DNA of 64,000 nucleotides. Source: Polytrichum commune. Taxonomy: Eukaryota; Streptophyta; Polytrichopsida; Polytrichales; Polytrichaceae. The DNA is taken from positions 26,029,501-26,093,500 of the forward strand of contig OX485805.1 in the NCBI GenBank assembly GCA_950295325.1. The letters run 5' to 3'. Below the pieces are notes generated by a model. The model ran no database searches. It was not told the DNA's origin and saw nothing but the letters and a program-made list of their open reading frames with translations. Positions 6,473 through 45,131 of this stretch are shown in pieces (position 1 is the first letter of the stretch; the number at the start of each line of letters is the position of its first letter). Made by a program: the position numbers and the translations under genes.

Positions 6473-6588
6473 TTCTTAATTCTTCACATTGTATTGGAAG
6501 CATGCACCATATAAATCATGCATAAGTTTAATATGAGTTTTTAATATTTTATTTCTATATTACTGAATTGACGTCTTGAATTTGAACT

Positions 6589-12520: not shown

Positions 12521-12777
12521 GCAAATTAGGAAGGGGCTTATTAACCCCATTATAGTAACCCCATTGGGCTTATGGGGTTCAACAATTCATAAATTAAATT
12601 GGAAGAATCTGAAATTTGCGCCTCCAACTTCATCTGAGGATGCCGTCTCGAATTGACCCTAGACCCTTCTACCCTATTTAACAATTAGTCCAATACCCTA
12701 AATGAAAGGTGAAAAGTGCATGTGTGGGTTAATATTAGTGAAGATTGAGTAGCCTCTGGAGGCCCATCAGCCTACTT

Positions 12778-12806
12778 AAACCCTAAACCCTAAACCCTAA
12801 ACCCTA
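12778..12806. repeat. Interstitial telomere-like repeat (CCCTAAA)4
   Basis: Four exact units of the plant telomere repeat, C-rich strand on top. A G-rich-strand tract lies 2.6 kb to the right. Confidence 0.95.
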
Positions 12807-14200
12807 TACTCGAAGTACCACTTTGGTTTGCATTTGAAGCAAATAATGAATGGGCTACCATGATACAAAACCAATCCCAAATATATTTGATATTCATATT
12901 AAGTGCTATGTCTGAATCGGTTGCTTCCACCATTGGTCACACTTTTTACATTATTTTGTTAGGTCCAATAGCTAAGTCATAGTCTAAGAACTCTAAAATG
13001 ATTTGAATCAGCTGATCAAACTAGTCAATTTAAAGCGTTGTCTACATTTGAGCACGTCGTAAGTTAATCTCATCCTAACACGTGTTCATTTAGTGTTCCC
13101 TCATAACTGCACGTATTACAAGCATACAACTCTTGGACAATTGATCTGCGTTAGTGACAAATATAGGTGTTTAATTAAGAAGCGCGAACATAAGGCCCTC
13201 AAACCTTAATCACCATGTGTCCAAGTGTCTTCGTGGCAATAATGCATCCAAATAAATGCATGGCTTGGACCCTGTAGGAAGCAGTTACAGCACTGGCCAT
13301 TCCCGCAAATTCCTGTGAGCATGCCACGTGTCACATATCTTCACATCATGTCTTCAAAAGTTCACGCCCAAGCAGCTGCTCTTGCAATGGTCGGAGTCAA
13401 TTGTTGAAAGTGCCTATATTGTTCATAATTGGGAGTTCACCCATTGGATCTCCCCTTTATGACCTCTCCACTTTCCTTCCATCCACACTCATAACCTTAG
13501 TACGTGTAATTAGGTTGCCTTCGCAAATGGGTAAAGTTGTGTTGCCTCTTACATCGCCTCTTTACGCAAGCAACTTTCCATAGGTCAAACTCGGATCAAA
13601 AACCTTATATTAAGTTTTTTGGTTCATTCCTATCACAATTAAAGTCCATACAAAATTTGTGTATTTTGTTGTACTGGTAATAAATAATCAAGTAATGTGA
13701 CATGCCAATAGATTAGTGCAAGACTACCTAATTGCCAATATTGGTGTAGGTAGATTCATTGGCATTTATTTGAGCTACTAGTCTAAGAGACAAATTGAAT
13801 CCAAACTTAAGTTAGAGTTAGAGCAAACCAAGAGCTACCTCAATTGACATGATGGAAACGGGGATTTGAGTATATTTGGATTATGCATTAATTTTGGACA
13901 ACACAACTGCCTAGTAGTATATGGCGTGCACTAGATTGGAAAACTACATGAAATTAATATAATGGTGGTTGGTAAATATGGCATACATTGTCAAACATTT
14001 GAAGTTGTCACTGATTGTTGTGTTGTTGCTTTAAATTTGATATGTTTGATATTTTTGTCCTGGGCCCACAAGTGCACATCCCTTATTATTTTAGGGTTTA
14101 CGGTTTGGCCAAATATACTCAAGTGTCAATTTGTTATCCTTGGTGTCAACTATTCAATATGCACACATGTAAATGTCAAGTGCAAAGCTTGTAGATAGCA
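12807..14200. other. No supported gene
   Basis: AT-rich DNA without a recognisable coding segment or repeat family. Confidence 0.4.
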
Positions 14201-14234
14201 ATTATTGTTCCCCATGAGCTTCAAAATTTTGCAC

Positions 14235-14480
14235 ACGGCTTTGATCTCAATGTTGATTTGCATTCAAGATATGTGGATCATGATCATAATGTAGCGAGGA
14301 CCACCTACGGCGAAGCTCACTAGTGATGCTAAACGTCATTCATCATTGTTGTCTAGTAACTTTTAATTGGACAACTCTTTACATTTTGGTGTTAATGAAA
14401 GTCTTTAAGTTAGTTTTCAAAAGTCTTTAAGGAATTTAATATATAAGAAGACAATTGATAACTTGGGTGGGCAACACCAA
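14235..14480 (+). pseudogene. Degraded pogo/Tigger transposase tail
   Basis: Nucleotide similarity to 40405-40660: GCTTTGATCTCAATGTTGATTTGCATTC..., GTGATGCTAAACGTCATTCATCATTGTTGTCTAG, GACAACTCTTTACATTTTGGTGTT and GGGCAACACCAAAGATCTTTGAA follow in the same order. Stops and frameshifts interrupt it. It shows that the giant element acquired secondary insertions or carries old ones. Confidence 0.6.
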
Positions 14481-15430
14481 AGATCTTTGAACTCTTCTTT
14501 CAAATAGTTCTTGAGAATATATGTATTTGTTTTGGAGTTATCAATTATTGGATTGGACAATCTATATTATTAAATATAGACGGTGTCAATATACTAAAGA
14601 CGGGAGAACAGTAGAAACATTTCCGCACTATCCCTAGTCCCTTCGGCAACTTGCCTATAATGTCTACCGTTGACTTGGCAACAGGCCTGGACTATGCAGT
14701 GAATCCCTCAATTGGCCGTAGTCCCCTCAAATTCACCCTAAGCTTGAACCGGTAGGTTTCCGACCTCAACAGTTTCACATGTTACGGTATGATACCCCAA
14801 CCCGAATCATTGTGAACTCAATTGGAAATATCCACATTACTGCCAGCAGGCTCGTATCTAAACCTCGGTACTAGCTGTACATTGCCGCATAACCCTGTCA
14901 TAATGGCTCTTCATGTGTGCATGCAATTCATGCTATGCCTCCACATATTGTCTTGATTTGATTGAAAATTTAACATATGTTGGTTGTCCCTTGTACAGTT
15001 AAACAGGGCCATAGTAGGCCACCCAGATTATAGGTAAACCCACAATAAGTCACAAATGAATTAAGGAATTCGCCTAGGGAAAGTTTCCTAGCAATTAAAC
15101 TCAACACAAAATGCCATGCATGCAAAACCAAGGATTTCGTAATACATTCAAAGACATAGTCATCGTATTGTTTATGTTGTCATTCATAGGTCCTATTATA
15201 CTTCCATTTGCAAATTGTAAGGTGAATACAGCTGTATGAATTGTGCATATTTACTTCTATTCATGTTTGTGTAATTTGGCTGCGCAAAAAGTGGTCCTAC
15301 TGGATCCTACTGTTTATGGGATATACATACACTTAGCGAATAGGTTTAGTTATTGCAAACAATACCTGTTGAGTTTTGGGTACTAGGGGATTGTTGTCAC
15401 TCCCACTCCAGTGCGCAATAATTGTGAACT

Positions 15431-15490
15431 TTTTAGGGTTTAGGGTTTGTGTTTTAGGGTTTAGGGTTTGGGGTTTGGGGTTTATGGGTT
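15431..15490. repeat. Telomere-like tract (TTTAGGG and variants)
   Basis: Two exact TTTAGGG pairs interrupted by GTGT, followed by TTTGGGG variants. The orientation is opposite to the tract at 12778. Confidence 0.9.
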
Positions 15491-17680
15491 AAGTTATTTA
15501 GTGGGCTCCAATCTGCCTTTGAAATCCAATGAGCTCAGTTATGTGCAAAATGCAAGGGTGGCCATTACGAATGGAACGGTCATTTGAAGCTCCAATGTGG
15601 TGTTTTGAAAAATGGGGTAACGTTATGGTCACTAACCTTTCACCATTTAAACTAGTGATCAATCTTGGGTCAAGTAACATAGTGACATTTCAAACATATT
15701 GGCATAAATATGCTTACAATTCAACCTACAAGCCTCAACCCTCCATCCTAAACATGCACTCTAAAAACTAAAACTCTATGCCTGAACCCCAAGTTCGAAA
15801 CGTTACCCCTAGACAATGAGTTTAATATCTAGCCGACGTTGAATGAATCATATCATCGTGACGAAGGCCACAAACCTATGCATTGGGGAGTCAAGTGTTC
15901 CACATGTTGATGGATGAGAGTAAACTTGTCAAAGCATAATTATTATACCCATAAGAAGTTTACACATTTGGTATGACACTAGTCGTATAACTAGTGTTAG
16001 ACATAAATGCGCCACCACCCTCCCTACGACCATGCACCTTCTCTTATCTTTGTTAAGAAATTTTCACATCCTTACTAACACTAAATTTGGGCATGTGACT
16101 TACCATAGTCCAAGTTTAGTGTTTGAGTTCACAATGAATGTTACTTACTTTCATCTAGGGTTACTAATATTTAGTGTATGCGTTCGTATTTTGTGTATCT
16201 AACACTAAATATCACTAGAGTGGGTTGGGACATATATGCACCACTATAGTTAACTAACCATTAATAGGTCAATGATCATGCACAAATAATATCATCGTCA
16301 ACTAAACCTTAAAGGTCAGCAATCATGCACCACTATAGTTAACTAATCATTAATAGGTTAGTGATCAAGCACCACTATAGTTAACTAGGTTCTGAGAGGA
16401 TTGTTTATTGCGCACCACTATTCACCACTTAGTGTAGTTAGTGGCGTTGTAGTTGCCACTATTATTTAGTGGTAGAAGGTCTCGAATACTTGCCAGCAGA
16501 TTGCCTACTAGTAGGCTTATGAAAGTGCACAATATTAATATCGGATGGAGGGCTAACCCTTGCGACACCCACTTTCACCATATGTTATAATCAACACAAC
16601 AATAACATAACATCTGTTATGTTATTATAACCAACAGACAACCTTAAAGTTTACCACCTTGCAATAAAGAAGTTCAACCCAAGTTAACTTATGCGTAGTA
16701 CAATGAACACACGACATCCTTACACCGTCGCGTAGGCCTAAGGTATAGACACCCATAACCGATAACGCACCCATCACCGACAAGTAGACCTATGCATGAA
16801 CGCGCATGGCTTAAATTAGCAGAAGTCGATGTTTTTATATTATAAATGTGAGGACCATATGACTTTGTGGAGGGGAAGTTGTCGAAATAGTTGTTGTCGG
16901 TCATGGGTGAAGCTATATGTTGGTTATGGACTCTAACCAACTTTCATGTTTGCAAAATTTGTAGTAATTCTAACTTTACTTAATCAATTTTGAAAAAAAG
17001 CTCGACATTCATCATGGACATTATTTTCCTACGCAGAAAAATTAACTCCTTCTTGATAACCGAAGATATGCTATGCTGAAATTCTTAAGTTATCGGTTAT
17101 AGGTATAATATGTACCTTAACTTAAATTTAGGGGAAATCTAGATATATTTAAAGATCCTACTACAGGCCACCGGTCCCTCTATAAATGTCCGTGAAGGAT
17201 AGAAGATTTCAAGAGTGATTTAGATTGTGAATTTCTTACATCTTTCTACTACTGCTTTCTTGTTGTCCTCGAGATTATCATTGATACATTCTATTAACCT
17301 TGATAATGTCACCCTTGGTAATAGAACACCTTAAAGTTTGAAACCGATTTTCTTAGTGTAAAACTCCCTTGTTATTATCCCTATCATCCTAGATAATGCC
17401 ACTATCCAAAATCCAAAATACATCCAAAATACTCCAAAATACTCCAAAATCCGTAGTGTGAACGTTATAATATCAATTATGGATGGATTGTATGTGATGG
17501 TTGGATGGACAGATTGTAATAGCCAAAAGGGTCATGAGCCGCCCCCTGTGATAATGCAATGCTATTCACATGGTCATGAGCCGCCCATGTGCACCAACTT
17601 TGAACGGTGTTGTCTATACACGGCACTCAAAGGTGTTGTATGGGACGGCACTGTCAAGACTTCAGACCTTAAACAACTGC
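15491..17680. other. No supported gene; short repeats
   Basis: Around 16235-16390 a segment of about 60 bp (CACCACTATAGTTAACTAA then CATTAATAGGT and GATCATGCAC) is repeated three times with variation. Near 17408-17450 there is a run of CCAAAATAC-type units. No coding frame is convincing. Confidence 0.5.
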
Positions 17681-18290
17681 CAAAATAACTAGAGTTAACT
17701 AGAGTTTTTTCAAGACATTAGAAAACAACTATAGTTAACTAGGAAATTTTCAAACCAATTTGAAGAACAACTATAGTTAACTAGAAATATTTAAGACCAT
17801 ATTAAAAAACAACTATAGTTAACTAGAAAAAAATTCAACCAACTACAACTTGAGAGTTCCAAAAAATGTAAGGAGTCAACCAACAAGTTATTTCATTTTT
17901 GAATTAACGTATATTACATAACTTCTATAATAGACCTTATGTTTGTCACCCATGAAGGCCCATCCCAAGAAGGACTATAACCCATTATACTCTAAGTAAC
18001 TTAGACATAATGAAGTCATCATCATGATGCTCATTGGGTGTTGATTGAGTGCGGATCACAACTGGAATCAAGTCCCAAATTTAAATTTTGAATAAAAGAG
18101 AAGGAAAATATATAGATGCTATGATCTGTCATGGTACTACACTACAGGTTGTGCCCAACTTTAGTTAACTAGATATAACTATAGTTAACTAGATTTTTTG
18201 GCATACCAAAATCAAAACAACTATAGTTAACTACATTTTTTGGCAGGTCAAATCACAAACAACTATAGTTACGAAAGGCAACTAGTTAAC
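17681..18290. repeat. Dispersed AACTATAGTTAACTAG motif cluster
   Basis: About eight copies of AACTATAGTTAACTAG or one-base variants occur at roughly 40-bp spacing (for example 17727, 17768, 17811, 18178, 18219), in two groups separated by unrelated DNA. The core AACTATAGTT is itself a palindrome. Related copies occur at 16240-16385, and one at about 4647 outside the giant element. Confidence 0.8.
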
Positions 18291-18539
18291 TGATAGTTGA
18301 ATTAGTTGGTTAGTTGTCCAAGGTCTGCAAGACTTCTCGGCCTCTAATATGCATCCCACCTTCCGTCACATGTGTTCACCTAATATGTGTCTATGAGGGT
18401 TTCGGCTTGTGTGAAGTAATTTGGGATGTTAGTTAAGTTCTACGGTTAGGTGAGCTGGTCTAGGTACAGAGTAAGTGTCGACTTAAGCTAAATTAGTTCA
18501 ATTGGTTTGCAGTGCAGGTGTTATTCGTTGTGTTGTTGT

Positions 18540-19095
18540 TTTTGTTGCTACATTGGAAGCTAGTGATTCCATGGAAGAAGACCCATTGATTGTTGATAGC
18601 AGTCACTGTGATGACGAGTCTAAAGTAGTATAGCTAAGCGATCATGCACAAAAATATGCTAAAGATGTTTTGAATTTTATGGTTAGCCAAGGTTTTCAGA
18701 TTTTCAACACCCAGGAGTTGTTAGGAATGGAAAAAATCCATAACAAGCTCATTAGAATTGGTGTTGGACAATAAACATCACTAAAACAATGTGACATTAG
18801 AAGCTCCTTTGTCTCTAGTGAGAGGTCTTTACCTGGTCTCAATGACAAATTATGATGTGCTCTTGCTGTTATTCACAATTTTGAATTAGAGTTTACATGT
18901 AAAAACATTGAAGTCTTGTATTTGTTATTTTCTTTTTTTACATTGAAATTTTATTTGATTGTCTACCTTTTTTTTTTGATAATATCACATTATGCACAAA
19001 TCTTCAGAATGTGACATTATCAAATATGACACCTTCAATGCTTATATCACACTTTATGGTGAAACGGATGCTGTGATATTATCAAGGTTAGACTG
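18540..19095 (+). mobile_element. Pogo-like fragment with defined right end
   Basis: Closely similar to 280-812: the transposase tail (CCATTGATTGTTGATAGCAG..., GATGTTTTGAATTTTATGGTTAGCCAAGGTTTTCAGATTTT), then the 3' non-coding part and the terminus ATTATCAAGGTTAGACTG followed by TA. The frame has a stop (GTATAG) early in the tail, so it is dead. Its left limit is uncertain. Confidence 0.65.
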
Positions 19096-22000
19096 TACCA
19101 ATATGTTGAAATGTCAGTACCGTTTCAATATACTCAAACATCAATGTTTCATTATTGAAATTATTATGGTTCTATCTTTTCACCATGTGTGTTCTTTAAG
19201 TTTGGTCTCACTTATATTATAATAGTATTGAACATCGCTTAAATGATAAACATGATAATGTGCACTTTGAACAAAAAATTCAATATATACATGAAGGGCA
19301 ATTTTTGAGCTAACCCTTCATTTTGAAAGGGAAAATTTTAAGTTACCCTTCCTTATGAAATACAAGCAACCCTTCAAATTTATTCCCTGACACTAAACAC
19401 CATAAACAATGTAACAATACTTATTGAATGCAGGGCCTAGTAAACAAATTAAACTTTTTAGGTTTGATCACCCCATGTGGTACTTTTGGGCCACCCCCTT
19501 TCGAGGGAGCCTAAAAGTATCACACAAGCCCTTCGGTGAAGGTGGCCTGCATTTGCAGGCGCCCAAGCCGAACCCGGATGATAGGTGTATAACGTGAGTA
19601 GTTAGATTTTTAAGGGAGATTAAATATGCGTCGTAGTACCTCCGGAGGTTAGGCCTTAGTTTTTTACTAGTGTGGCTTTAAACTCCACTAACCAATTTCA
19701 TATCTTGTTCTAACCTTAACCTACAATCTATTCTACGCGCAGACGCACCAGCCTTGAAACCAAGGCAATCCTAATTTGTGAATTGGGATGGTTCTGATAC
19801 ACCCAACCGGGTGTGACTCATACCACCCTAACTCAACGAACGGAATAACGACAATTTGATGGACCATTCAATTCTTCCTATTTCTTTATTTAGTTCTATT
19901 TAGTTTTCTAAGCGGGGGAACTTGGCCTAAGTCCCACCCTTCACACAAATTCCTTCTTAATTACTTACTTTTGTTTGCACGTCCTAACTTACTACATTAA
20001 CATATTAGGCATCACCCCTTACCTCGGGTCTCTTGCCAACAAGGGTTTACGATTTATTTTGTATGTTTTGATTGTTAAATGTGTTTACACTGGATAGACC
20101 ACGAAATGCAACTCAATGGGACCAGGGTGACGGGCGACCTGTAGGTTCAACCTGTTGCGCAATCTTCATAAATTGGGGCCATTACTCCCAATCTATGGGG
20201 CCAACAACATAATAGTGGATTCGCGGGTCATTAACCCCACCTTTCCACCAACAACATTCAGAGTGGTCGTGTCGGTGATTAATCCGACTTACCACACACG
20301 AAACTTGCTAATAAATGAAGCTACTACCACAAAACATACCAAGGGCCCCGAAAACAATGGAATTGGGTACTCCCTTGGCGGTCAAGTGGTCAAGCCACTT
20401 GACCTTACGAGATAGGTGAGTGGGTTTAGAGATGCGTACCTTAGCCGTGCTCCCTTCAATCCTAAATGGAAGGCTTAAGGTTAGTTAATTTACCTCAATT
20501 TTCCTCGGTTGATTTGGGCTTGATGTAGGCCGAGCCGCTACCTCCTTCCTTGCTCCACTTTCCGAGCGTCGACCTTGCCTCCTTCTTTGTAACTAGTTTG
20601 GTAGTAAGCGTACCTTAGTTAACAACTAAAATATAAAGTGTTATTCTGCCCTGTAATTTAATCCTAAGCATAATATTTATACTTAGTGCACCAAATTATT
20701 TTTCCAATGATCTAAAAATCACTCTAATCGGATAAGAAATGCAAAAGTTATGAGGGTTGGAAGTGTGAGGTCGATTCAACCGACCCTTCCAACCCACCTA
20801 TCTACCTTCTAACTTCAAAAATTCATAGCACATTCCTTACTACTTGGATCTAGGCTTTCCTTATACCATTGGAAAGCTATGAACAAGCTCTAACTAGAAA
20901 AATTATGACATCAGCAGGTTAAGCTAATAGAAATTCAGCGGACTCCTTGTAACACAGCAGTCAATCAAGAAGGCTTAAACTATGTATCTCGCCTTCAACA
21001 ATTCATATCTAATTCAAATCTTAGTCAAATCAAACGTTCTATATGACCCTGGAGAGATATTAAAAAGATGTATTTGATAAAAATATGTGATTAGAAAGGT
21101 AAGCCGAAGTGAACCCAGCAGGTCCTCTGTAATGCAGCAGTCAACCAAAAGTTCTCAAACTATGTGTCCCATCTTGCACAATTCATATCTAATTCAAATC
21201 ATGCTCAAATCAAATGTTCTAAGCCATTTTGGAAAGCTACACAAAAGTTCTACTTGGGAAAAATATAATTTCTTGGAATTAAAATTCCTATTGGGCTCGC
21301 AGGTCTGATCCAGCAGCCGCTACCCACAAGACCACCCAGTTTTTCTACTCCATCTTTGAAAATCCATAACTAATTATCATCTCAACCAAATCACAAATGG
21401 GAAACGGCTATGGATAGCTATATGAAATCTCTCTAAGAGAAAAATGATAAGTATCTTGTTCTAGCTTTTGAACTAAGCCTTCAGGGCATTGGCAGATGAG
21501 GTCTATAATGCCTCTACTCAAAACTCTACCATCCAACCTACCTCTACAAAAGAAGGAATAATTTTGTTGGTGTGTTAATAAACACACAACCTAACTAGGA
21601 GAGAGAGAGTAGAGGAGGTTCTCAAGCCTTTCTTTTAGACCATTGAGAATACATGCTGAAGGATTTTTTCCTAACTACATTGAAGCAGGGCTTCGCCCAA
21701 AAACTAGAGAAAGAGAGAGAGCTACAAGGTGGAAGGAGGGGTTTTTAAACCCTCTCACAAAAGGGTTGGACCCCTCCTCCACCGGATCCATTTTTCAAAC
21801 CCTTTCCCGAAATTTTGGCTCGGGGGTTTTCCCGGTTGAGGTTGCCACCCTCTCGCCGAGGTGGCTCCGACAAAAAATCTTTAGAAATCTTTCTAATTTT
21901 TCCGCCATCGAGTTGGCAAGGGGGCAAGTGGGCAAGTATCCCCCTTGCTCTCTTTCTTTTTTGTCTTCAAAATTCTTCACGCCGATTTTATCTTCTTACG

Positions 22001-23060
22001 TAAAACACCTCCAATAGTCTTGTGTGCCTCACACTAACTAATAAACTAACACTTGCTTAGCTAGCATCTACTAACATTTGCTTAATAACTAGCATCTACT
22101 AATATTTGCTTAGCTAGTTGTTTTTACTAGCTAGCACATTTTTTCTACTTTGCTATCTTCTAGCACTACTTAGTTTCATTTTGACCTTCCTTCTTCTAGG
22201 CTAAATGCTAAATGAACTAATTTTTCCTAAATTCCCTATCAATTCTAACTTTTAATGCTAACATTCTAACTAAAAGTGATCCCGCAGAGTGGTGGACCAC
22301 TCAAAGGGTTCACACCCCACCTTATTTTTCACTCGGAAATTAAACTCAAGGTTTTGATGATGATTTCAAGACAAAATTGCTCAGAAAAGAAATATTTGGA
22401 CTACAAGGGAACGCTAAATTGTCGTCCAAAGTATTCCAATGTGCTACTCTCACTGTCATAATGTAGATTTTTTAATTAATATTTTTGCTTAAACATGTTA
22501 CTTATGTTGATGAATTGTATCATATGGGCAATTAGTAGGCTAGCCTTGACACTTTGAGACCCCGCCGGCATCTAGTTTAGGCCCTTCGCAAATTGTGCAC
22601 TTGACACTAAACATCATAAACGGTGTAGTACCTTCTTACATGTGGTGAAATATATATGTATATGAATATGTATGTGTATATGTATAATTTTTGAGCTGCA
22701 TATATATAGGTCCATTCAACTGAATCGTTTTTGAGAGTAGAGATTATCAACGTTTCAATACATAGTACACTCTTTTAAACGTGTCTTCTTGATGTTTGCT
22801 CTTTGATCCTCACTGAACCCCATACCATTCAAATATAGGGGTTTCGGTTTATGTACCAGCCAAGCGGTGGCGGTGGCCGTATCATATCTAAATTGAACCA
22901 TTGTGATGGAATCAAGCCATTTGGACGAAAGCTCATTTGGTAAGTTAAGTGAATGATAAGTGAAAGCACCAACTAACATCATACAATTTGCAATCAACAC
23001 CCTCTACAGTTAGTAGGAAGTACCCTTCCTACTAACCCACACCCTCCTTAATGAGAACGG
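19096..23060. other. No supported gene; anonymous repetitive DNA
   Basis: Three ACCCTTC motifs at 19315-19375 recall the giant element's subterminal repeats. ACACTAAACACCATAAAC near 19390 recurs as ACACTAAACATCATAAAC near 22605, so the 3.2 kb between may be a later insertion. Open frames at 21643-22017 have low complexity and match nothing I know. Confidence 0.35.
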
Positions 23061-23099: not shown

Positions 23100-24610
23100 T
23101 CCGGCGTCTAGGATCTGGGCCGTCCATTATTGACGGCACAATCCTGACCATCGGCACTTGGGCGAAGGGACGTGGCCGTTCCCAATCTTGGGTCCAGAAT
23201 GACCTCCCCCGCTCAACACTTTCATTGTGTTTTCTCCTCTTCGATCCTAGTGTTTTCTCCTCTTGGTTCTTCCGTTGCAACATTGTGCACCCTCTCCCTC
23301 TCCGCACCCGGCTCCAAGTGTATTATGCATTTGCCTTCGTCTATGCTCCTTGCTTCATTGAAATTGCTGATCTAGTATGCACCTTGCACCTTGCTTCACT
23401 GCCATCCAGTTGATCTCTTCTAGTATGCACCTTGTTTCATTGAAATCTGGTTGATATCTTGTAGTATGCACCTGGTTCACTCCAATGTGGTTGAGCTCTG
23501 CCTCTAGTATGCACATTGCTCAACAATCTGCATCTTCCTTTTTCAATTCACAATCTGCATCATATCTCCCTTTTCGCACATTCCTCCACCCTCCTGAAGT
23601 GCCATCCACACCTGGGATCCACTCAGTATATCACAAAGAGCATCCTGGTTATGTTTATTTCATTGAATGCATTTTGCTTGACGTTTTTCTATACATTAGG
23701 CACCCTGAATTCTTATTAAGAAATCTTCTTTTGTTTGTTCCATCTCCATGGATTCGGGATGTTCACCCTGATACTCTTGATTTCTAAAGAGTATGCACCT
23801 GGAGCCTCCAAGTGTATTAAGTCAATTTTCATGTTCCACATTGTTTGTTTGCTATGCTTCATTGAAATCTTCACCCCCAACATCCTAAATTTGTTCAGTG
23901 CAATCGGCATCTTGAATTTTCCTTCGATATGCTCACTTTTTGAGGTATTTACAATTGGAACCTAATCACATTCCGGTTTTTCTTTTTCAATCCAGGCCCC
24001 TAAATCCTTGCAGCATAAGCATTCAGATTAGCCATATTCCTGTACACAATATTAAATAACCTCCATCTTGATCCATGTAGCAAGACATGGTATTGGTTTC
24101 TACAGTAATCAGAACTTATGTAAAATCCCCACTCCTGCTCTTATTGTTGATTCCAAGTGAAGGTCGTGCAAGCAGAGACTGAGTAGCAAATATACATCCA
24201 TATTCTTCACACAAATCAGGTACACTTCCCGGCTTGCATTGAATGTCAAAGACATAGAAATAAGAAGTTTACATGCAATTCCTTCAGTCGAAGTATATTT
24301 CAAGATATAGTGGTGGGAAATATCCCCGTTCACACCTGACTGTACGGACACTCTTCAGGGTTGGAGGCGCTGGGCCACTTTCACTCGATCGAGTGAAAGT
24401 GGCCCAGCGCTGGCGTGCTGGCTGCCTGAGAGCCATGGCTGGCCACTGGCCACTTTCACTCGATCGAGTGAAAGTGGACCAGCGCTCGCGTGCTGACTGC
24501 CTGCTTGTGCCATGGACAACCATGGCTCACTTTCACTCGATCGAGTGAAAACATTAATGTTGAGTTGAGTGATGCATTAATGTGGTTTGAAGATTGACTT
24601 ATTTCACATA
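23100..24610 (+). promoter_or_regulatory. Upstream/leader region of the ParB-like gene, with diverged repeats
   Basis: This region precedes the acceptor at 24618-24619. At 23360-23530 and again near 23790, units beginning AGTATGCACCTTG and continuing with TTCATTGAAATC... recur at about 60-70-bp spacing. No upstream coding exon is convincing, so it probably holds promoter, 5' UTR and a 5' intron. The last 240 bp contain three P palindromes. Confidence 0.4.
24367..24550. repeat. Three P palindromes in tandem units
   Basis: P copies at 24376-24401, 24451-24476 and 24531-24550 (20 bp). The first is extended to a perfect 44-bp palindrome (24367-24410) by the arms GGCGCTGGGC. The first two copies begin a tandem unit of about 75-80 bp: after each comes GG-C/A-CCAGCGCT-x-GCGTGCTG-x-CTGCCTG and, further on, GCCATGG. 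The cluster lies just upstream of the ParB-like gene's first coding exon, before its splice acceptor. Confidence 0.9.
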
Positions 24611-24619
24611 CCATTGCAG

Positions 24620-27600
24620 GAGGCATGGACAAAGTTGTTTTCTGGACAGATATAGTTGGAGTCAAACAAACAGGACCAACTGGTCCTCAATGGGTAATTA
24701 GAGACTCTCATTTGCAGAAGTGGTCGCTGGCCATTAACAAGAGAAACAAATCTTCAGGGTACGAGCTTATATTTACGTACAAGGTAAACAATAGTTGGAT
24801 TCCGAACCCTGGAAATCCAATTACCATCGCTCATGTGGGAGCGAGGGACAGGCTAGAGGTTTCGGTTATGGAGGGGGTGGAAGAGAGAATTTTATCAATT
24901 GATTGCAAGAAGCATACATTTCTCTTGGTGCCATTTTATGAGTCCATGGCCTCATTCCCTTCGAAGGAGAAGGAAGAGATAGAGAAGGTGATATCATCTG
25001 GAATATCCAAAAGAGCCATAAACTTTGTGTTGGAGACACTGGAAGACATCAACAGTAGAGAGGCAGCTACACGGGAAGAATCAAGGCAGCAAAAGAAGAA
25101 GCAAGCCGAGGTTATACTGAAATCCAAGGCCGATAAAGGTGGCAGCTCTATTGGACAACAGCCGAAGGCAAAGAAGGGGAAAAAACCTGAAGAGCTAACC
25201 GTATCACTGGAGACGGAGAGAAGGAAGCCTCACGAGGTGGTGCCCCACATTTCTACAGATTCTCAGAATACGGAGAGGGATGCTGGGGATGCCGGGAGTG
25301 GAAGGAAAAAGAAAGCAAAGAGGGCTTTGCCACCCGAGAAGAAATCAAAGCAAAAGAAAATGAAGCCCGACGTTGTTATGCATGAGGAAACCCCACTGGT
25401 CTTGACTCAAGCGGAGAAGGGTCGAGTTATATCGCAAGGTCAACAACCCAGCCTTGAGGAAGCTGCTCTGGATAGGAAGAAGTTTTTGCAACTTTTTGGG
25501 CACATTTATCCATTCGGCGCAGAATCGATATTCCGTGTACCCATCAAACAAATGAAGGGCGCAAAAGCTTATCAGATTACGCGGCCTTTGGATCCAAGTG
25601 GGGTGAACCTCATGAAGAACTACCTTATCCAAACCCTGCCTACTTGGCCTCAGCACAATCTGTGTTTGATGCCGAAGTTCAAGAAAGGTGAGACATGGCA
25701 AGAAGGCATGACATGGGATGACATCAAGAACATGCAATTCGCCATAATCAATGGGCAACATACTGTAGCCGCATCTACGGAAATAATTGCTCATCGAGAT
25801 ACCGATCCGAAGCTCAAGGAGAAGTTAAAGGTGTGGCCCTGCACAATTGTGTGGACAGAGGATCCGAGCATGACCGTCAGGCTTTCATATACATTGAACA
25901 ATTCAAACTCGTTCAACAAGTTCACACCGATATGGACTACACAAATTCTGTATTGTCGCAGGGTTTGGGTGAAGTTGAACAAGCCTGAAAAGCAACGTGC
26001 GAACGCCTCTGAGGCTACACAGGACCCTGAGAAAGCATTGGCTTGGAAGGTATGTTACTCTGCTCCCTTAATTCATCAGACCTCTCTCAAGTGTTGACAT
26101 GGCCTCACACCACTTTCACTCGATCGAGTGAAAGTGGTGAGGCGTACCTAAAGTGTTGACATAGCCTCACACCACTTTCACTCGATCGAGTGAAAGTGGT
26201 GAGGCGCACCTAAAGTGTTGATCATGCAGGCATTGTAAACCATTGTATCCTAAACCAATGTATCCTATATCCATGATGTGTAGAACTTTACTACCAGCAT
26301 GGAGGCACCATTCACCGCAATCGCAAGAGGGATCACGCATAACGATCTTAAAGCGGAACTCACGTTAATTATGGCCCCTGAGGAAACATCAAGATTGTGG
26401 AAGAAAGTGTTCGTGTCGCACGAGAAGGGCTTATTTATCAACCCGGACAAGCCAGGACGCACATACCTGGAGGATCATGTGGAGGCTCAACAAAAATTGC
26501 GAGCTCGCCACGAGAAGTCCAAGGCAGGAACACCCTTCGTGGAGAAACCTTTCGTGACTAAACTCCTTACAAGGGAGACATTCAAGAGTATGTCAGGACT
26601 CACAAAGCCAGACTTTCACCTGGCAGCGAGACGACTTTTAGAAGGAAGGGGAGAGGACGGCGTTCCTAGTGTCACTCTCAGGCCTTGCAAGAACAGCAAT
26701 GTCGTGACACTGAAGTCATGGTGCAATTTCCGCAAGTGGAAGAATATCTTGCTGCAGGAGTTGGATAAGCGGGATCCCAATAAAGTTGGCTTGTGGAAGA
26801 AGGATGATGAGGGGAATGGGTTCCTGGATCGCGACGTATGGACAAAATTCAAACGGGAGCATGGAGTTACAAAGCCGAAATGGATAAAGCTCTACCAGGT
26901 TGCGACTTCAGAGTGGTTGAACAGGAAGAGGGCGACTAACAACAAGTCCTTACCGGTACAGCCGGCTTTAGACCGATTGCTTCGCGACTGGCTGCAAACA
27001 GATTTCAACGAATGCACAGGGCAAGTGATCACGCGGTGGGTGTCACATAATGCCATTAAGAAACGATTGGTGATTCCCAAGCAAGATTCCAGTGATGTTG
27101 AGTGGATTGAGGGAAACACCATTGCCGCGGGGTTTCTGGACTTCAGGTTCATCCCTGGATGTGTAGATGAACCAATCCCTCCTGAAGTTGTGGAGTCCTT
27201 GGTTAAATATTTGTGCTCTCCGGAATGGACATCAGGGGTGAAATCTGTTCCAGCTTGGATGATTGTCTCCGACTTGCGTAGCCATGATGCCTCGCTCGTA
27301 TTCATGTCGTCGTTTATGCGCAGACATCCCAACACGTTTGTGATCGTCCCGTCGTTCTATTTCCCTTGTCCTGCAGAGGAAATAGCCGACCCCAAAGAAA
27401 TAGTTGGAAAGAGGCAAACCCCTGCGCTCTACATCGACCACCTCATTGTCCCAGATAAATTTCCCAGGTGGAAGGTAATTGCATGTCCAATGCTAGCCCC
27501 GGATTCACGCCGATACAAAGTAAAACCCAAGGATTGGTCTGAGTTGACATATGAAGTGAATCGAGGGGAGCTCAGAATGGAGGTCTATATTAAGTTCTTG

Positions 27601-30600
27601 GAATACATGGGTTCCGCCGGAGGCATGGTTCTCAATCTATTTGGGGGCTTGAAACCAGTTGCTGCAGCGTTGGTGAGTTCCACCTATCTGAACTATCTCA
27701 ATTCGTTCCCTTTCACCTTTTCCCTCTTCCATTTTTCTAACCTCATTGATTTTCCAGATGCACGATTACAACGTTTTTTCCTACATGGATTCGGCATTCT
27801 TGCATATTCTGGACGCGTTGATTCAACGTGTTCGCGTACTTAAGCTGAAGGATTTCGCTGAACAAGCCGAAGATGAAGATGAGTACCAAGCCCACGATGG
27901 CCACATTCACCCTGACCTCAACCCAGATCCACCCTTGCTTTTGGTAAGTATTGCTAATGAATTACTTTCTTGTGTTTATGAAAATCATCGTTTTCTCACT
28001 TCCCCTTTATATGAGATGATAGTTGACATTGTATGGTTGCTACACAGGAGGATGTCGAAGATCGCGAACCGATCGAGGCCATGGACATTGACCGAAACCC
28101 CTCCGATGTGGAAGATCTTCCTGACGATGAAGATGACGAGTCTGTGGAGCCTCCAAGTGAACGGGATACCGACGTCAAGAGCCATGGCGAATCCCCCCAC
28201 ACGTCCCATCACTCGGACGATGATGCCCCTGGCGGTTTGACTCCGTTGGAAGAGCATATGTCGACTGCCTGCGATCTCGGTGCTTCGCCGCTACGAGCGA
28301 AGCAACTTGACTTCGATGACGAAGACCGCGATGACCAAGACCCAGCTGACGATGAAGACCAGGAGGATGAGGACCAGGAGGATGAAGAACACCAAGATGA
28401 GGACCAGGATGTCGAAGAAGAGGATCAGGATGCCCTTGAGGAGGATCAGGATATCCAAGAGGCCCAGGATGTCGAAGAGGAGGTCGAAGATGTCGATGTG
28501 GTTTTGGAGTCCCCTCGTTCTATTCCCGACACCTACCAACCTCCACAGCCTGCTGCACGTAGTCCACAGAGACCCAATACCGCCGAAGTTGGTGCTAGTG
28601 GGTCCATGGACATTCCACAGAGTCCCCTCAGACCCAGTACTGCCGATGTTGGTCCTAGTGGTGCCATGGACATTCCACATAGGAAGTCCTCTCGCTCACG
28701 AAGTCGGTCCTCAACTAAGGATAGGCATAAACGCCGCCATGGTAAGCCCGTGGAGCCCCCACTTACGACGGTTGTTTTGGAACCTCTCATGATGGGCATT
28801 TTGAATAAAAATTTACCAGGCTTACTAACGAGCCTGTTCAAGGATGCCATGGCCCAGGCCATGCCACCCTCTCAAGCCGTGCCCACGCCAATTCCTACTC
28901 CGGCCCCTATACCAGCAAATGCGGAGGTTGTTTTTGTCCCCATTGGTACTGACCCTTCCCAAGATGTCCTTCCTCAAGTAAAGCCAGCTCATGTGGATCA
29001 ACCGGAGGTTGCTGAGAAATCGGCCGAGAAGAACGAAGTGGAAAGTTCACCTGCAGATGCCGGATGCCTGGAGGGGCCTTCACATGATTCCCAGCTTGTT
29101 GAAGATGAGGTAAATATCCTTGACCTATTCTCGCTTTTCCAATTGTTTTTAAACATGCTAGTCACTGAATCTCCGCCGGGATGTTTGATCCAGGTTGGAG
29201 GCCGCGCATCATAATCAAACCACTTGGAGAATAGGAAGCCGTTTGTAGATCGCAATCCAAGGCTGACTAGAGCATTGGACTTAAAAACCTTTAGGACATT
29301 TTAGTTGTAGCCAAACTCACCATGTACTGGGTACTTGGAAGATGTACATTTTACATTCAATGAAATGTGTTTCGTCTATACATTGTCTGCAATGGCTGTC
29401 ATTAACAATGCATGTTCAATTCACAGGCTGGTTTGCAAATCGTTGATTTCACACGGCCAGAATCACCATGTGCAGCAGTCCCGCAAACGGGTGCAGCCGA
29501 AGAGGACACCTCACTTATAGTTGGCCCCATGCAAGCCCCCATTGCCACTACATGTCGAAGTCCAACGCTTGTCGTCACCCCTTTGGACAAAGGGGATCGT
29601 TCACCCCTCTTGCCCATAGGTAGTGACGATGATGTGGTCAAGTCGCCTTCACCCACAGCGGTCCACATTGCTGCCATCAAACCTCTTGCTCTGAAGCAGG
29701 TTGTCATCGAACATTCAGAGCCCGGGCCATCATCTGCAGGCCTGCAACAACCAATATCACCACCTTGTTACTGTACTGCTACCGTGGAGCCAACGGAGCC
29801 TTCCTCTTCTGCAGGCCCTTGCCAACCCGAGGCTCCACATTGTGAGGAGCCTGCTGTCGTTGATGCAACGGAGCCCGCTGTCGTCGATCCAACGGAGCCT
29901 TCATCTTCTGCCGGCCCACATCATGTCAAGAAAGTCGTGGAATGTTGGCCACGCGACGACAGGTTCCCCGACTTTCCCCCTGACAATACAAAAATAGCCG
30001 AACGTCCATTTGAGGCTTGGCGGGCTATGCACGCCAGCCGTTCCGAGGTCACTTGCCCAGAGCTGCGTGTGCGGCCAGCTCTCCCAGTTTGTGTAAGCAT
30101 CGTTTCCCCTTCTCATGGCACTTAGTTTGTGTAAGCTTCGTTTCCCCTTCTCAATAAAATTTCACTTGGTCCACTGGATTTTCTTTTCAATATACCCGGT
30201 TTATTTGTGTCCCAAACATTCATCTCCGCGTAGTTTTGGGTTCAGGGTGGACAAAGTGCGCAAACGACTGTGGATGCGCCCTTCAACCCACACGTTGTTT
30301 ATGATAAACTTTTTGTTTACGCTGACAACTACCCAGCGTACGATAGGAACATCTCTCAAGTTTTCACGAGGGAGATGGGAATAGCGTGTGCTAAAAGACT
30401 TATTTCTAGGGACCCTCAAGACCCTTCAGTAGGACCATCGGATCGCTGGGAATTCAATCCCATAACTTTCGAGGTATTGGTTTCCCAGTTCATAATAACT
30501 TTTAATATTTAGTTCATTATAAACCCCCATATCAATATATGCACCTATTGCATATATGAATGTAAGTTAATGAATATATGAATGTAAGTTATTGAATATA

Positions 30601-31444
30601 TGAAGTTCCACAATTTTCATTAGTTGCAACATTATATGTAATTCGAGTAAAGCAGGAGAAGTTGACAGTGGATTCCTGTCGCCAGGCGCTAGCTGCTGTA
30701 CCCGACCGAAGGTTCATTCTGGTGTTCGATTTGAATGGCATATTTTGTCATTGTATTCCTCGCGGCCGTTCCGCTTTACCCACATGGATGGTGCAAGATC
30801 GTGCGCCAGACAAGGGTCCGGCAATTGTCGGTCCCAAAGCTGTCCTACCTAGACTGGGTTACAAGCAGTTTTGGGAGAGAATGACCCAAATGTTCTATGT
30901 TTGCATATGGTCATCTATGAAAAAGTCCACTGTGGACCTCGTGGTGGAGTTTTTATTCAATGGGATGTCAAGACCTGCAATAGTTCTTGGCCAAGAGGAT
31001 TGCATCACATTCAAAGACATCTGGGACAATGAGATCAGGAACCCCCTAAAGCCAGAATCAATATTGTTCTTCAAGAGTTTAAACAAAACATTTTGGTGGC
31101 CGCCTGTATCTCTTGATTCCGGACGTGTTACTGCCACTATTGAGAACACTGTTCTTGTGGATGACAGCCCCTACAAAGGTGCTTGTAATCCTCCCGGGAA
31201 TGTATTGTTTCCCGATTCCTTCACCACCAACAAACAGGCAACTGCGGATATGAGAGCAGTTCTTCTCCCCTACTTCCAACGTATGTTCAATTCGACAATG
31301 AGCGACGTACGCGATTTTGTGATCACACATAGATTTGGGCAACAGCCGGTCCCGCATAACGATCCAGTCAGGGAGTCACTTATGATGGCCAACAAGCACT
31401 CCAATCGACCCGACTTGCACCCTATAACTGCTGTCCCAAGATAG
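24620..31444 (+). CDS. ParB-like / methyltransferase-like / FCP1-like HAD multidomain protein (spliced)
   Basis: Exons 24620-26049 (ATG 24625), 26305-27672, 27758-27943, 28048-29109, 29427-30092, 30246-30473 and 30656-31444: about 1907 residues, GT-AG introns, all phase 0. The exon 2 start is the least certain; 26299 ATG could start a separate gene. Residues 160-265 are Lys-rich (nuclear signals). Residues 290-440 look like a ParB/sulfiredoxin fold: VPIKQMK, L.KNYLIQ, then INGQHTVAAS (375-384) and WPCTIVW. Residues 820-930 resemble a degenerate beta-class DNA N4/N6 methyltransferase: IVPSFYFPC in place of the catalytic DPPY-type motif, then VLNLFGGLKPVAAAL like the SAM-binding FxGxG motif. 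Residues 994-1130 are strongly acidic, with SR/KR runs near 1210. Residues 1665-1840 form an FCP1-like HAD domain: FDLNGIFCH (D1670, second Asp replaced by Asn) and VDDSPYK (1814). Function is unknown; a chromatin or DNA-binding role is inference. Confidence 0.65.
26108..26198. repeat. Two P palindromes in a 62-bp tandem repeat inside intron 1
   Basis: P at 26111-26136 (perfect to 32 bp, 26108-26139) and at 26173-26198. The whole unit, AAGTGTTGACAT-x-GCCTCACAC plus P plus GTGAGGCG-x-ACCTA, is duplicated. Both lie between the donor at 26050 and the proposed acceptor before 26305. Confidence 0.92.
30086..30150. repeat. Short direct duplication at a splice donor
   Basis: AGTTTGTGTAAGC-x-TCGTTTCCCC followed by TTCTCA occurs twice, 36 bp apart. 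The first copy contains the proposed donor (TGT|GTAAGC at 30093) and the second a possible duplicate donor. Confidence 0.7.
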
Positions 31445-31527
31445 TTAGCATGTAGGGTTTAGGTTAGGGCATGTAAGGTTCATGAATTGTATGGCATGTA
31501 ACATTGTGTATTATATGCTTTGTTCAG

Positions 31528-32327
31528 TTTCCTCCTGCTGGATACACACCATCCACTTCCAAGCGATCGGCATTCGTGTGTCTCACCCCGCGGCATGAAC
31601 ACAACGTAGTACTGGCGTGCCATCCCTTCTCACTCGCCCACGTGGGCGTAGAAGCTATCCGGGTCGCTAACTCTCAAAGTGTGTCACCCCTCGCTGAAGC
31701 AACCCCTGAAGGACAGAGTCTGGTAAATATAGCTCATTTTGTTCACCTGGGAATGTTCTTACCCAAATAAATATTTTGCAAATCTCCTTTTCAATCTCTA
31801 TCTAATCTCCAACATTTGGCGTGGAATGTATGTGCATGTATATGAATGTTGGTGGTATTTGTGGGGCAATAAGTTGGAGAATGTTTTTTGCCTATGTCGG
31901 CCTGCAGGATGTTGACCTAAATATGCTCCCCCCAATGGATGACGGACCACAACCCGCCCATACATTATCCATTATGCGCCCCACCCCTACCCGCGAGTAC
32001 CAAATTGCGCTAATCGAATCGCAAGGCCCTGACTCAAGAGGTGTTCGTCTTCTACGTGCTGGATTGGCATCACTTGGGAAGACTTATGCCCCTCAACCCG
32101 CCATGACGAAGCTCCCTTCCACCATTAACCATGTGGAGGGCGTTGACACCAGTATGTGCACCCTCGCAGATGCTTCAACACCTCCATGCGGAACTTTGGC
32201 CATCGTGCACCCCGCTGCTACACGGGACTACCAAATTTCACTCATCGAATCTCAAGGCCCTAATTCAAGGGCAGTTCGACTTTTGCGGGCTGGATTGGGT
32301 GACCGTGGAAATAATCGTATCGCTTGA
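31528..32327 (+). CDS. Downstream exons with internal repeat (possible C-terminus of the ParB-like gene)
   Basis: Two segments with good exon borders: 31528-31722 (65 codons, after TTGTTCAG, ending at GTAAAT) and 31908-32327 (139 codons plus stop, after CCTGCAG). Both are in phase 0, like every intron of the preceding gene. The second contains a duplicated module of about 36 residues: P-T-x-T-R-E-Y-Q-I-A-L-I-E-S-Q-G-P-D-S-R...RLLRAGL and P-A-A-T-R-D-Y-Q-I-S-L-I-E-S-Q-G-P-N-S-R...RLLRAGL. The preceding HAD exon ends in TAG at 31442 without an obvious good donor. Either these exons belong to an alternative transcript, or the TAG is a disabling mutation, or this is a separate gene whose start I cannot see. 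Confidence 0.45.
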
Positions 32328-32487
32328 CGAGGCAGGACTACAATTGAGCGACCTGTAGAAGCCACAACATGTATTAAATACTATAGTTGATAATGCGTCC
32401 CCTTTAGCCACATATCGGTGGGGACATATATATAGCCAAACATGTATGTAGACGCCTAAGAATGAGGCATTCGACATATGCTTCAGG

Positions 32488-32493
32488 AATAAA
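32488..32493 (+). terminator. Possible polyadenylation signal AATAAA
   Basis: AATAAA about 160 bp after the stop at 32327, in the orientation of the cargo gene. The assignment rests on position alone. Confidence 0.35.
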
Positions 32494-32725
32494 GATCTCA
32501 ATTCAAACAGTAATTGTTCTACAAACTTGGTGTATGGGTTACCAATTCTTTTCTTTCGAGTACAAGGCTGTAGCCTCCACTCACCCACTCATTTGAACCG
32601 GTCAAAGTAGTGTTGCAATCAACTGGGAGTCCATTAGGGGTCACTGCTACACAACATAGGATTTGTTCCCAATGCGTTCCCAATGCGATCTCAATGGACA
32701 CTCCAGAAGTCCCATATTGACGCCA

Positions 32726-32832
32726 AAGTCCCGAAATGTTTAATATAGTGTTACTAGCCCTTCAACCGAAGGGCTCAAATTTTAGAGCCCTTCAAAATGA
32801 AACTCATATGAGGGCTTCAATCTTGAACACTG
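32726..32832 (-). repeat. Right end of the giant hAT element, an inverted, deleted version of the left end
   Basis: Read inward from the right, the sequence is the 18-bp inverted repeat, then GAAGGGC motifs, then AACACTATATTAAACATTTC followed by GGGACTTTG. The left end has the same two blocks, but with the transposase frame between them (5338-5355 and 6589-6617). AGCCCTTCAACCGAAGGGCT (about 32757-32776) is a near-palindrome made of two subterminal motifs. Confidence 0.75.
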
Positions 32833-43501: not shown

Positions 43502-45131
43502 CAAGGCATAAAATTGACACCGTGGGGGGTGTATTTTGCTTCCTAGAGTGTCCTAGGACACCCAAATCTCAAACAGGGTGTCCCCGAGGACACCCAAAAA
43601 TCCTACAAGGGTGTCCTTTTTACACCCAAAAAAAATTCAGGGTGTCCCCTGTACTTGTAGGGCCTATGAGCGTATATGTTTGACAAAGTTTTTGCAAGTT
43701 TTTCTTTTTTGACACGCAAAAACTTGCACAAAAAAAATTGCACGTCAATTGACACGCACATTCTAGAAATTGACACGTACTGTGACTTGTGAAGAAAAAA
43801 ATCACACGTCAATTAACACACTAGAAATTGAAATGACATGTATTACTTGAGTACTATAAAGTGCAGCTCAAGTATCCGGAAAACATATTAACCCATAACA
43901 GTAGGAGAACTTCCTACACTCACTCACATACTTAAGTTCAACTTTGCTCTTGCAATTTCCTTTGTAACCGGGAGCTAGGACGGTGAATGGAGAGCGAGAC
44001 TAACTAGGAACATGGCGAGGCAAATGTTTCTATCACCGTGGCGCCTCCACATCCTCCACTCAATATGAGTTTTTTCTTGCTTCCAACCAATGTGAGGAAA
44101 ACTTGGATCTAACTGAGATTGGAGATGCCATAGAGATTACGACACGGTCTTTGTCAAGAAAATTCCTAGTGTATGAATATGAGGAGTTTGGTGCGGATAC
44201 CAAATTTGTGGCACAATTTTTGGACATTTCTAGAGGTGGTGAGATCCATTTTCAAGACTCTACAAGAGTGGTGCATTCACATATATTGCATTATGCACCA
44301 TTGCCTCATGCAATTGAATTTGGTGGTGATGGTACCCTCCATGGGTGCAAGGTGATTGCACAGGCCTATGTGGTTAAGGTGATAGAATCATTGCAGCAAC
44401 GATTTCCCGATTTGAAGCTCTTCAATGCAGCTAAGCTATTTAGCCCTGTCTGTTTTTCAACAGACTTGACACTTCTTCATCGAAATGCTCGTTTATGGCT
44501 TCAGAGTTTCATTGACCACTTTTGCACTAATGGAGGGAATCTTTTTGATGAGCGTGGTTTTAAATCAGAGCTTCGAGGTTTTTTGGATACACTTCATATT
44601 TCATGTGGTGGTCTTAAAATGCACCAAGCTTGGATGGTTTATTCTTCCAATTTGGACTATGTTGGAAGATATCCTCATATGACAAAGTTGTGGCAAGCTG
44701 TTCTTGTAATTCCTGCTAGTACAGCTTCTTGTGAGAGAGGATTTTCTACTCAAAATCATATTAAATCTACTTTACGGTGTAGTTTGGTATTTGAGATTTT
44801 GGAAGCACAAATGAGAGTTGCAATGGCAAAAATCCCCATAGAGGCCATTGACTTTGAACAAGTATGGGTAAAGTGGTGTGCTATGAAAGGCCGCCGCTTG
44901 TAGGTTTGATTTGCATTGCAAGTTATGATATGTAGTGATTTTTTTTATTTTTAATTGAAAATTTGAAATGATATTATATATTTTTCAAAATTGTACCTAT
45001 TTTGACAAAAAAAAATTTAAGAGAAATTTATGAGGACACCCAAAAATTGGAGCAGGGTGTCCTTGGGACACCCAAAATTTGGGACAGGGTGTCCCCTGGA
45101 AATTTGGCTAGGGTGTCAAATTTATGGCCTG
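43502..45131. mobile_element. 1.63-kb hAT element with TIRs and 8-bp TSD
   Basis: Left end CAAGGCATAAAATTGACACC, right end the complement of CAGGCCATAAATTTGACACC (17 of 20 match). The flanking 8-bp duplication GTCATAAC lies at 43494-43501 and 45132-45139. Subterminal GGGTGTCC/GGACACCC motifs recur about eight times within 140 bp of each end, often in inverted pairs. It encodes only a C-terminal transposase part. Confidence 0.9.
44103..44903 (+). CDS. hAT transposase, C-terminal fragment
   Basis: A 266-codon open frame without an ATG at its beginning. Motifs: FPDLKLFNAAKLFSP (about 93-107), then LWQAVLVIPASTASCERGFSTQN (about 198-220), the canonical hAT dimerisation signature with ER intact. 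It is about 45% of a full transposase. The BED finger and the N-terminal catalytic part are missing from the 1.63-kb element, so it cannot be autonomous. It is related to, but diverged from, the frame at 5597-6472, where the same FPDL..FNAA.LFSP and LWQA.LVIP.STA.CE.GFS order is seen. Confidence 0.85.
   Translation: MDLTEIGDAIEITTRSLSRKFLVYEYEEFGADTKFVAQFLDISRGGEIHFQDSTRVVHSHILHYAPLPHAIEFGGDGTLHGCKVIAQAYVVKVIESLQQRFPDLKLFNAAKLFSPVCFSTDLTLLHRNARLWLQSFIDHFCTNGGNLFDERGFKSELRGFLDTLHISCGGLKMHQAWMVYSSNLDYVGRYPHMTKLWQAVLVIPASTASCERGFSTQNHIKSTLRCSLVFEILEAQMRVAMAKIPIEAIDFEQVWVKWCAMKGRRL

Follow-up and report, generated by a model that had tools for sequence, protein, structure and literature searches.

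We analyzed a 64,000-nucleotide stretch of Polytrichum commune DNA (GenBank assembly GCA_950295325.1, contig OX485805.1, positions 26,029,501 to 26,093,500), hereafter the window, in which a large gene on the forward strand (24625-31444) lies inside a 26.2-kb inverted-repeat DNA transposon (6590-32752). The same element carries a second gene, read leftward, and a palindromic core that recurs before both genes and within the first intron of the large gene. A preliminary description of this DNA had proposed that the large gene encodes a protein combining ParB-like, methyltransferase-like and FCP1-like HAD regions and belongs to a plant mobile element; it did not mention the palindrome arrays, the transposon ends or the second gene.

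The element opens with a 28-bp terminal inverted repeat, AACACTATATTAAACATTTCGGGACTTT (6590-6617, forward strand), and closes with its reverse-strand counterpart (32725-32752), which is the same as the left one in all 11 elements compared. It is flanked on both sides by the 4-bp target-site duplication ACTA (6586-6589 and 32753-32756). When the 28-bp end was searched against the genome (408 Mb, 64 contigs) with up to three mismatches allowed, 70 forward and 62 reverse matches were obtained (132), and the reversed-pattern control gave 0. Ten copies were then fetched, namely pairs whose exact ends lie 22.2-24.4 kb from each other (the remaining pairs, such as those of 15.7 and 31.5 kb, being left out), and the window element is about 2-4 kb longer than these ten. 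All 11 elements were bordered by a 4-bp duplication (TATG, TATA, TTAT, TTTA, TCAT, TAAT, ATAG, CAAC, GTAT and TAAT in the copies, ACTA in the window), so that the proposed mobile element is borne out by its ends, its duplications and its near-identical copies at ten or more other places in the genome. Terminal inverted repeats with a target-site duplication would place it among cut-and-paste DNA transposons. The duplication measures 4 bp here, as against 8 bp in the KDZ superfamily and 9 bp in VANDALs, which are Mutator-like. Sequence divergence among the copies in the right-hand part of the element, which measures about 8 kb in the window, is 0.05-1.23%, so that the family appears to have spread recently.

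The large gene was modeled as seven exons and six phase-0 introns, with GT donors and AG acceptors throughout, giving a product of 1,914 residues without an internal stop. Exon 1 (24625-26049) encodes a folded N-terminal domain (residues 1-175), a lysine-rich linker and a DGQHR/ParB-like region (about residues 285-470) that contains INGQHT (25747-25764, from residue 375). Exon 2 (26284-27672) carries, from about 27022, an amino-methyltransferase-like fold with DFRF (27139-27150) at the motif IV position, PSFYFP (27349-27366, from residue 831) and the motif I-like LFGGLK (27637-27654, from residue 927), features that were placed from the predicted model of a relative (P0034), structural comparison and conservation. 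The remainder of this Rossmann-like part (NVFSYMD), uninterrupted in eight relatives, is encoded by exon 3 (27758-27943). Acidic Asp/Glu repeats (28329-28501) and a proline-rich region follow in exon 4 (28048-29109), and a low-complexity linker that is 98.6-99.2% identical among the ten copies in exon 5 (29427-30092). Exon 6 (30246-30473) comes from the splice model, and exon 7 (30656-31444) encodes an FCP1/NIF-type HAD domain with DLNG as motif I (30728-30739, from residue 1677) and DDSPY (31160-31174). INGQHT, PSFYFP and an FGG-type motif, the landmarks of the preliminary description, are thus present where it placed them.

The acceptor of intron 1 (26050-26283) is CAG at the same position in 10/10 copies elsewhere in the genome, and its donor GGTATGT is retained in nine of the ten; in the window copy the acceptor (26281-26283) reads TAG. 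In the relative P0083, a single 863-aa open reading frame (ORF), the DGQH-bearing ParB-like region runs directly into the methyltransferase-like part, and eight exon-2 relatives (P0034, P0037, P0042, P0047, P0048, P0050, P0061 and P0062) cross the intron-2 position in frame. Because the intron-1 acceptor is kept in the copies, P0083 is unbroken and these eight relatives read across intron 2, the ParB-like and methyltransferase-like parts are predicted to be one polypeptide in this family. The assignment of exons 4-7 to the same gene rests on the reading frame, the splice signals and P0062, whose ORF continues past the methyltransferase-like part to the acidic region by reading in frame through the apparent intron 3. 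Exons 1 and 2 have 31 protein relatives each (30/31 at E <1e-80), and exon 1 has at least 91 matches in its own genome by tblastn. The gene proposed at 24620-31444 is therefore upheld by an open seven-exon model, splice sites kept in copies and relatives, and many protein relatives. Set against the majority of the ten copies, the large gene of the window copy has 54 differing codons, 33 of them nonsynonymous and 21 synonymous, whereas the 3' region (31445-32752) differs at only 2 of its 1308 bases; recombination between subfamilies or diversifying change is a possible source of this uneven divergence.

The window contains nine occurrences of the 20-bp core TTTCACTCGATCGAGTGAAA, all of them within the element, against 0 in 100 shuffles. 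Four occurrences precede the leftward gene, namely a 94-bp perfect palindrome centred on the core (10808-10901) and sites at 11097-11124, 11152-11175 and 11203-11228. Three form a promoter array of the large gene (a 44-bp palindrome at 24367-24410, and sites at 24450-24477 and 24531-24550), and two lie in its intron 1 (26108-26139 and 26170-26201). Genome-wide, the 26-bp core has 183 exact occurrences (control 0). The arrays of the ten copies stand at the same three places, constant in position and variable in number: 4-5 sites before the leftward gene (10/10 copies), 1-5 sites with a 62-bp unit in intron 1 (10/10), and 3-15 sites, mostly spaced 73-77 bp apart, in the promoter of the large gene (9/10, the fragment of copy E8 having ended short). 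The 28-bp ends lack the core; the sites are internal, kilobases from both ends.

By protein identity, the exon-1 matches comprise 14 near full-length at 97-100%, then a group at 85-89%, most at 47-71% and seven at 26-28%. Sixteen diverged loci were fetched from among these, ten with 57-63% identity, two with 88-89% and four with 26-28%, and all of them have inverted-repeat sites at the gene, upstream in 10/16 and in intron 1 in 15/16. The cores change symmetrically between subfamilies (TTTCACTCGATCGAGTGAAA, TTCCACTCGATCGAGTGGAA, TTCCTCTCGGCCGAGAGGAA, TTCCTCGCGGCCGCGAGGAA). The 88-89% loci have TTTCAC-TCGATCGA-GTGAAA. L032-L035 have TTCCAC-TCGATCGA-GTGGAA upstream, and intron 1 of three of them holds versions that are TTCCTC-type, mixed or near-identical. 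L036-L041 have TTCCTC-TCGGCCGA-GAGGAA in intron 1, with one site of L039 altered symmetrically to TTCCTCGCGGCCGCGAGGAA and two sites of L041 one base off symmetry. In a scan keyed on the central bases, 47/57 sites in 12 loci were symmetric at 10/10 positions and the other 10 at 9/10, one exon match at 4/10 having been dropped. The four loci at 26-28% identity carry an unrelated 20-bp inverted repeat, TTACGAACGNNCGTTCGTAA, at 43 sites (31 with perfect arms); these loci are related to one another, so that their sites are not independent. This repeat comes with seven spacer pairs that differ between positions within one locus, and its central two bases are often not self-complementary (CT, CA, TG, AA, TT) with the arms constant; it was found 0 times in 124 kb of window and window-family DNA. 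Since an exon-2 homologue follows the exon-1 match, a HAD match (35%) lies downstream of the ParB-like match (5.6 kb at C5:7002897, 3.7 kb at C2:70221250), and the right end, taken where two 99.7% identical copies diverge, reads AACACTATATTCGGTATTTGGAGACTTT (22/28 bases as in the window end), the distant family appears to be the same kind of element. Half-sites that change symmetrically, arms that are conserved around a variable spacer, and an unchanging position at the gene are characteristic of a site that is bound by a protein dimer and evolves together with that protein.

Besides the sites of the window, perfect palindromes built on the core reach 108 bp (L033, 806-913), 70 bp (L040, 2725-2794) and 68 bp (L037, 2684-2751; oriented coordinates). 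Palindromes of 68-108 bp exceed what a binding site needs, which suggests symmetric extension by some process.

The ParB/sulfiredoxin fold that had been proposed for the first region fared less well. An alignment of DGQHR proteins (11 of 14 fetched loci, three without a motif-bearing ORF being dropped) matched it collinearly through the R...DGQH...A core, with an hhalign probability of 70% and a score of 41.8 that 0/40 shuffled or reversed nulls reached, the best null coming close at 38.4. PHROG 1033 ('ParB-like partition protein') was matched by 7/24 members with a best E of 0.0088, chance families reaching 1/24 at 0.0077 and, in a separate comparison, 5/26 members at E 0.027. No convincing match was found in Pfam, NCBIfam or PADLOC, and the ParB_N profile (PF02195, canonical ParB) was absent among Pfam matches up to E 10 in all 32 exon-1 family members. 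The TIGR03187 (DGQHR) profile gave 0 matches in the genome of the element, with matches in 2/14 control genomes. Structure prediction, which the preliminary description had also proposed, yielded a Rossmann-like model for the methyltransferase-like region, whereas that of the ParB-like region was of low confidence (values below).

In the predicted model of P0034, together with structural comparison, the methyltransferase-like region has a Rossmann fold and the amino-methyltransferase motif order IV...I. Strand order puts the catalytic motif IV position at DFRF, and PSFYFP was rejected as the motif of that position; hence the claimed fold and the FGG and PSFYFP motifs stood, but not the catalytic placement of PSFYFP. 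The [DNS]PP[YFW] catalytic motif is not present, each residue of DFRF being kept in at least 90% of 31 relatives and P0083 reading DFRT. Profile searches of Pfam, NCBIfam, PADLOC and PHROG gave no convincing family match for this part; the best PADLOC match was PglX, a methyltransferase, at E 0.0014 in 1/24 members. The order ParB plus methyltransferase had been described as known from phage and bacterial proteins, but no such protein was found in sequence searches, so that a phage or bacterial origin lacks sequence support.

As had been described, an acidic stretch and an FCP1-like HAD domain follow the methyltransferase-like fold within one gene of the mobile element, and the NIF profile PF03031 was matched above its cut-off (39.7 bits vs 21.8; 5e-10). 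DLNG, WSSM, a Lys and (V/I)DD(S/C)P are retained in 9/9 aligned HAD sequences; the nucleophile motif DxDx(T/V) is absent from all nine, DLNG standing in its place.

Where divergence permits a test, the large gene appears to be under purifying selection and to be maintained on the whole. The ratio of nonsynonymous to synonymous substitution rates (dN/dS) was 0.13 (L032-L033) and 0.25 (L042-L043) for exon 1 and 0.23-0.27 for the HAD exon (window vs L050, L051 and L053), with ORFs taken whole and some including codons beyond the exon. Synonymous sites were saturated between the window and the tested 57-63% loci (exon 1) and between the window and L048 (HAD). Among the ten near copies, E2, E6 and E11 carry a stop or frame-breaking gap in an exon, exon 1 of E8 is only partly aligned, and the exon-4 alignment of E1, E3, E4, E8 and E9 ends at base 635; the frames are otherwise open.

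The leftward gene has a last exon at 7390-9414 (reverse strand) with a DUF7869 domain at about 8356-8775 (PF25273, 1.5e-39, 136 bits vs a cut-off of 26). An upstream exon at 9533-10489, an open frame across AG/GT sites, is joined to 9414 and is not necessarily the start-codon exon. The last exon is free of stops in 9/10 copies, and both genes were found in all ten. Because it is the sole other sizeable gene recognised in the element, its product is a candidate transposase; no mention of DUF7869 was found in the literature searched.

Taken together, and with a probability of about 0.5, we propose that the 1,914-residue product is a sequence-specific DNA-binding regulator that grips the palindromes at both genes as a dimer and keeps the genes of the element expressed. 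A dimeric DNA-binding protein is suggested because the subfamilies have their own symmetric cores and because an unrelated repeat with varying spacers appears at 26-28% identity. The large protein would bind the palindromes before both genes and in its own intron 1; recognition would fall to the DGQHR/ParB-like region, by analogy with DndB. The methyltransferase-like domain, which lacks DPPY, would likely be a scaffold that binds nucleotides or nucleic acid; the HAD domain would either target the transcription machinery, as in the FCP1 family, or be a pseudophosphatase; and the DUF7869 protein would be the transposase. The least certain step is the net effect, which would be anti-silencing or activation, as for the VANC proteins of Arabidopsis VANDAL transposons; we prefer it over repression because of the expansion of the arrays, their presence at both genes and the acidic stretch.

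Several results weigh against this proposal. No DNA-binding domain of known type was identified in the large protein, the structure model of residues 285-474 had a predicted local distance difference test (pLDDT) score mostly <50, and in profile comparison four canonical ParB proteins ranked 12, 33, 37 and 77 of 229 ORFs and so did not stand out. L036-L041 (6/16 loci) have no upstream palindrome within the 1.2 kb fetched, and L035 has none in the 400 bp after exon 1. Many relatives carry stops, in 4/10 near copies there is a stop, a gap that breaks the frame or only partial coverage of exon 1, and very close pairs gave dN/dS values of 0.29, 0.53, 0.73 and 1.38, pointing to weak or no constraint in some (0.73, 0.53, 1.38). 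The DUF7869 protein travels with the same palindromes and could equally be their binder, and the direction of the effect, activation or repression, is drawn from analogy.

The geometry of the sites, in the promoter of the large gene and before its partner, is DndB-like and would also suit an autorepressor or copy-number governor that shuts both genes off once enough protein is present, much as the dnd operon and DndB's own gene are under DndB control; we regard this as unlikely, as the intron-1 sites and up to 15 tandem sites exceed the needs of a simple operator and the acidic stretch would rather resemble an activator. That the DUF7869 protein binds the palindromes instead, as a regulator or for assembly of a transposition complex, would fit their presence before the leftward gene and the occurrence of both genes in all ten copies. 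The sites, however, are far from ends that themselves lack the core, and intron 1 of the large gene holds sites in 15/16 diverged loci (fetched without the leftward gene), which makes this rather improbable.

The palindromes might also act as nucleic acid: hairpins, either transcribed or extruded, would then give rise to small RNAs, block the polymerase or initiate recombination. Perfect palindromes of 108, 94, 70 and 68 bp would favor this, and intronic copies would form RNA hairpins, but the constant arms around central bases that vary and often fail to pair in the distant family fit a dimer site better, and we consider it highly improbable. We find it least probable of all that the large gene is a dead passenger whose decayed domains are carried without function. 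All three enzyme-like parts do have altered catalytic motifs, and stops are frequent among relatives; yet the altered motifs (DFR, FGG, DLNG) are conserved across families, in 6/10 near copies the aligned exon stretches are free of stops and frame breaks, and dN/dS is 0.13-0.27 in the informative comparisons.

We rate the machine as a DNA transposon with a proposed private regulator. A bolder extension of the dimeric regulator, which we offer tentatively and judge somewhat more apt to fail than to hold, is that these giant plant DNA transposons (22-26 kb, with 4-bp duplications and a DUF7869 transposase) form an undescribed superfamily. In it, a ParB/DndB-type protein, joined in one polypeptide to an inactive amino-methyltransferase and a HAD domain, would co-evolve with the palindromes as a private self-recognition code, each family opening and regulating its own copies alone. 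The system itself may have grown the palindromes, several of which are perfect over 68-108 bp.

Among known systems, ParB-parS would share a ParB-like core and has clustered palindromic sites as well, and the half-site TTTCAC/GTGAAA recalls parS; here, however, the canonical ParB profile is unmatched and the sites lie at genes, and no ParA turned up, although no search aimed at ParA was made. MT-A70 and beta-class amino-methyltransferases (MTA1, METTL3-METTL14, M.BceJIV, CcrM) differ in having DPPY/DPPW where DFRF or DFRT stands here; METTL14 is itself a non-catalytic partner. FCP1/SCP (NIF) HAD phosphatases share the PF03031 match and the WSSM, Lys and DD(S/C)P motifs, and differ by DxDx(T/V) in place of DLNG as motif I.

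DndB, one of the DGQHR proteins, binds palindromic sites within the promoter of the operon that encodes it (PMC4507180). The INGQH/IIDGQHS core and the collinear profile match resemble DGQHR proteins (TIGR03187), but here T or S replaces the final R of DGQHR, the region belongs to a transposon protein that also has methyltransferase-like and HAD parts, and the family profile is unmatched in the genome. For VANC proteins of Arabidopsis transposons, binding goes with loss of DNA methylation, and the targets are short motifs in tandem repeats in noncoding regions and introns that vary between related transposon families (PMC5735166). The likeness lies in a predicted non-transposase protein of a DNA transposon and family-specific tandem motifs of varying number in noncoding regions and introns. 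The present element differs in its 20-26 bp palindromes, its DGQHR/ParB-like, methyltransferase-like and HAD parts, its 28-bp ends and its 4-bp duplications, and a VANC-like anti-silencing would hold for it by analogy. Fungal DNA transposons carry TET/JBP dioxygenases, DNA-modification type proteins thought to counter silencing (PMC12730594); they too pair a DNA transposon with such a protein, though of another protein family and in other transposon families. No description of a comparable element was found in the literature searched. If the proposed regulator is real, plants would have, in addition to VANC, another transposon-encoded, sequence-specific self-recognition system, one assembled from unrelated DGQHR/ParB-like, methyltransferase-like and HAD parts. 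Its long, symmetric, countable sites, and several subfamilies with different sites in one genome, would make protein-site co-evolution and specificity switching directly testable, and DUF7869 would gain a genomic setting.

Other features of the element and its surroundings were also recorded. Its middle part (12400-23000, about 10 kb) is gene-poor and includes TTTAGGG-like stretches close to positions 12778 and 15433. Such TTTAGGG-type repeats, together with the lectin receptor kinase-like ORF described below, point to a land plant as the likely host. An ORF located after the HAD exon but before the right end (31821-32327) contains an internal duplication (ALIESQGPDSRGVRLLRAGL / SLIESQGPNSRAVRLLRAGL) and possibly represents further exons or a small third gene; its portion 31909-32327 is 99.8-100% identical in the ten copies. 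Elsewhere in the genome, several element ends lie clustered with mirrored core sites at C2:23193592-23289424, an arrangement that resembles a large inverted duplication of elements, and at C1:53390548-53393042 two transposon ends stand just 2.5 kb apart, a possible short non-autonomous derivative. Outside the element, the window contains a 28-bp perfect palindrome, TGCTCACATGAGCATGCTCATGTGAGCA (1273-1300), unrelated to the core, and pieces at 5528-6472 and 44004-44903 that we take, from their C-terminal motif, to be hAT-transposase-like. An intronless ORF at 49637-51886 presumably resembles an L-type lectin receptor kinase.

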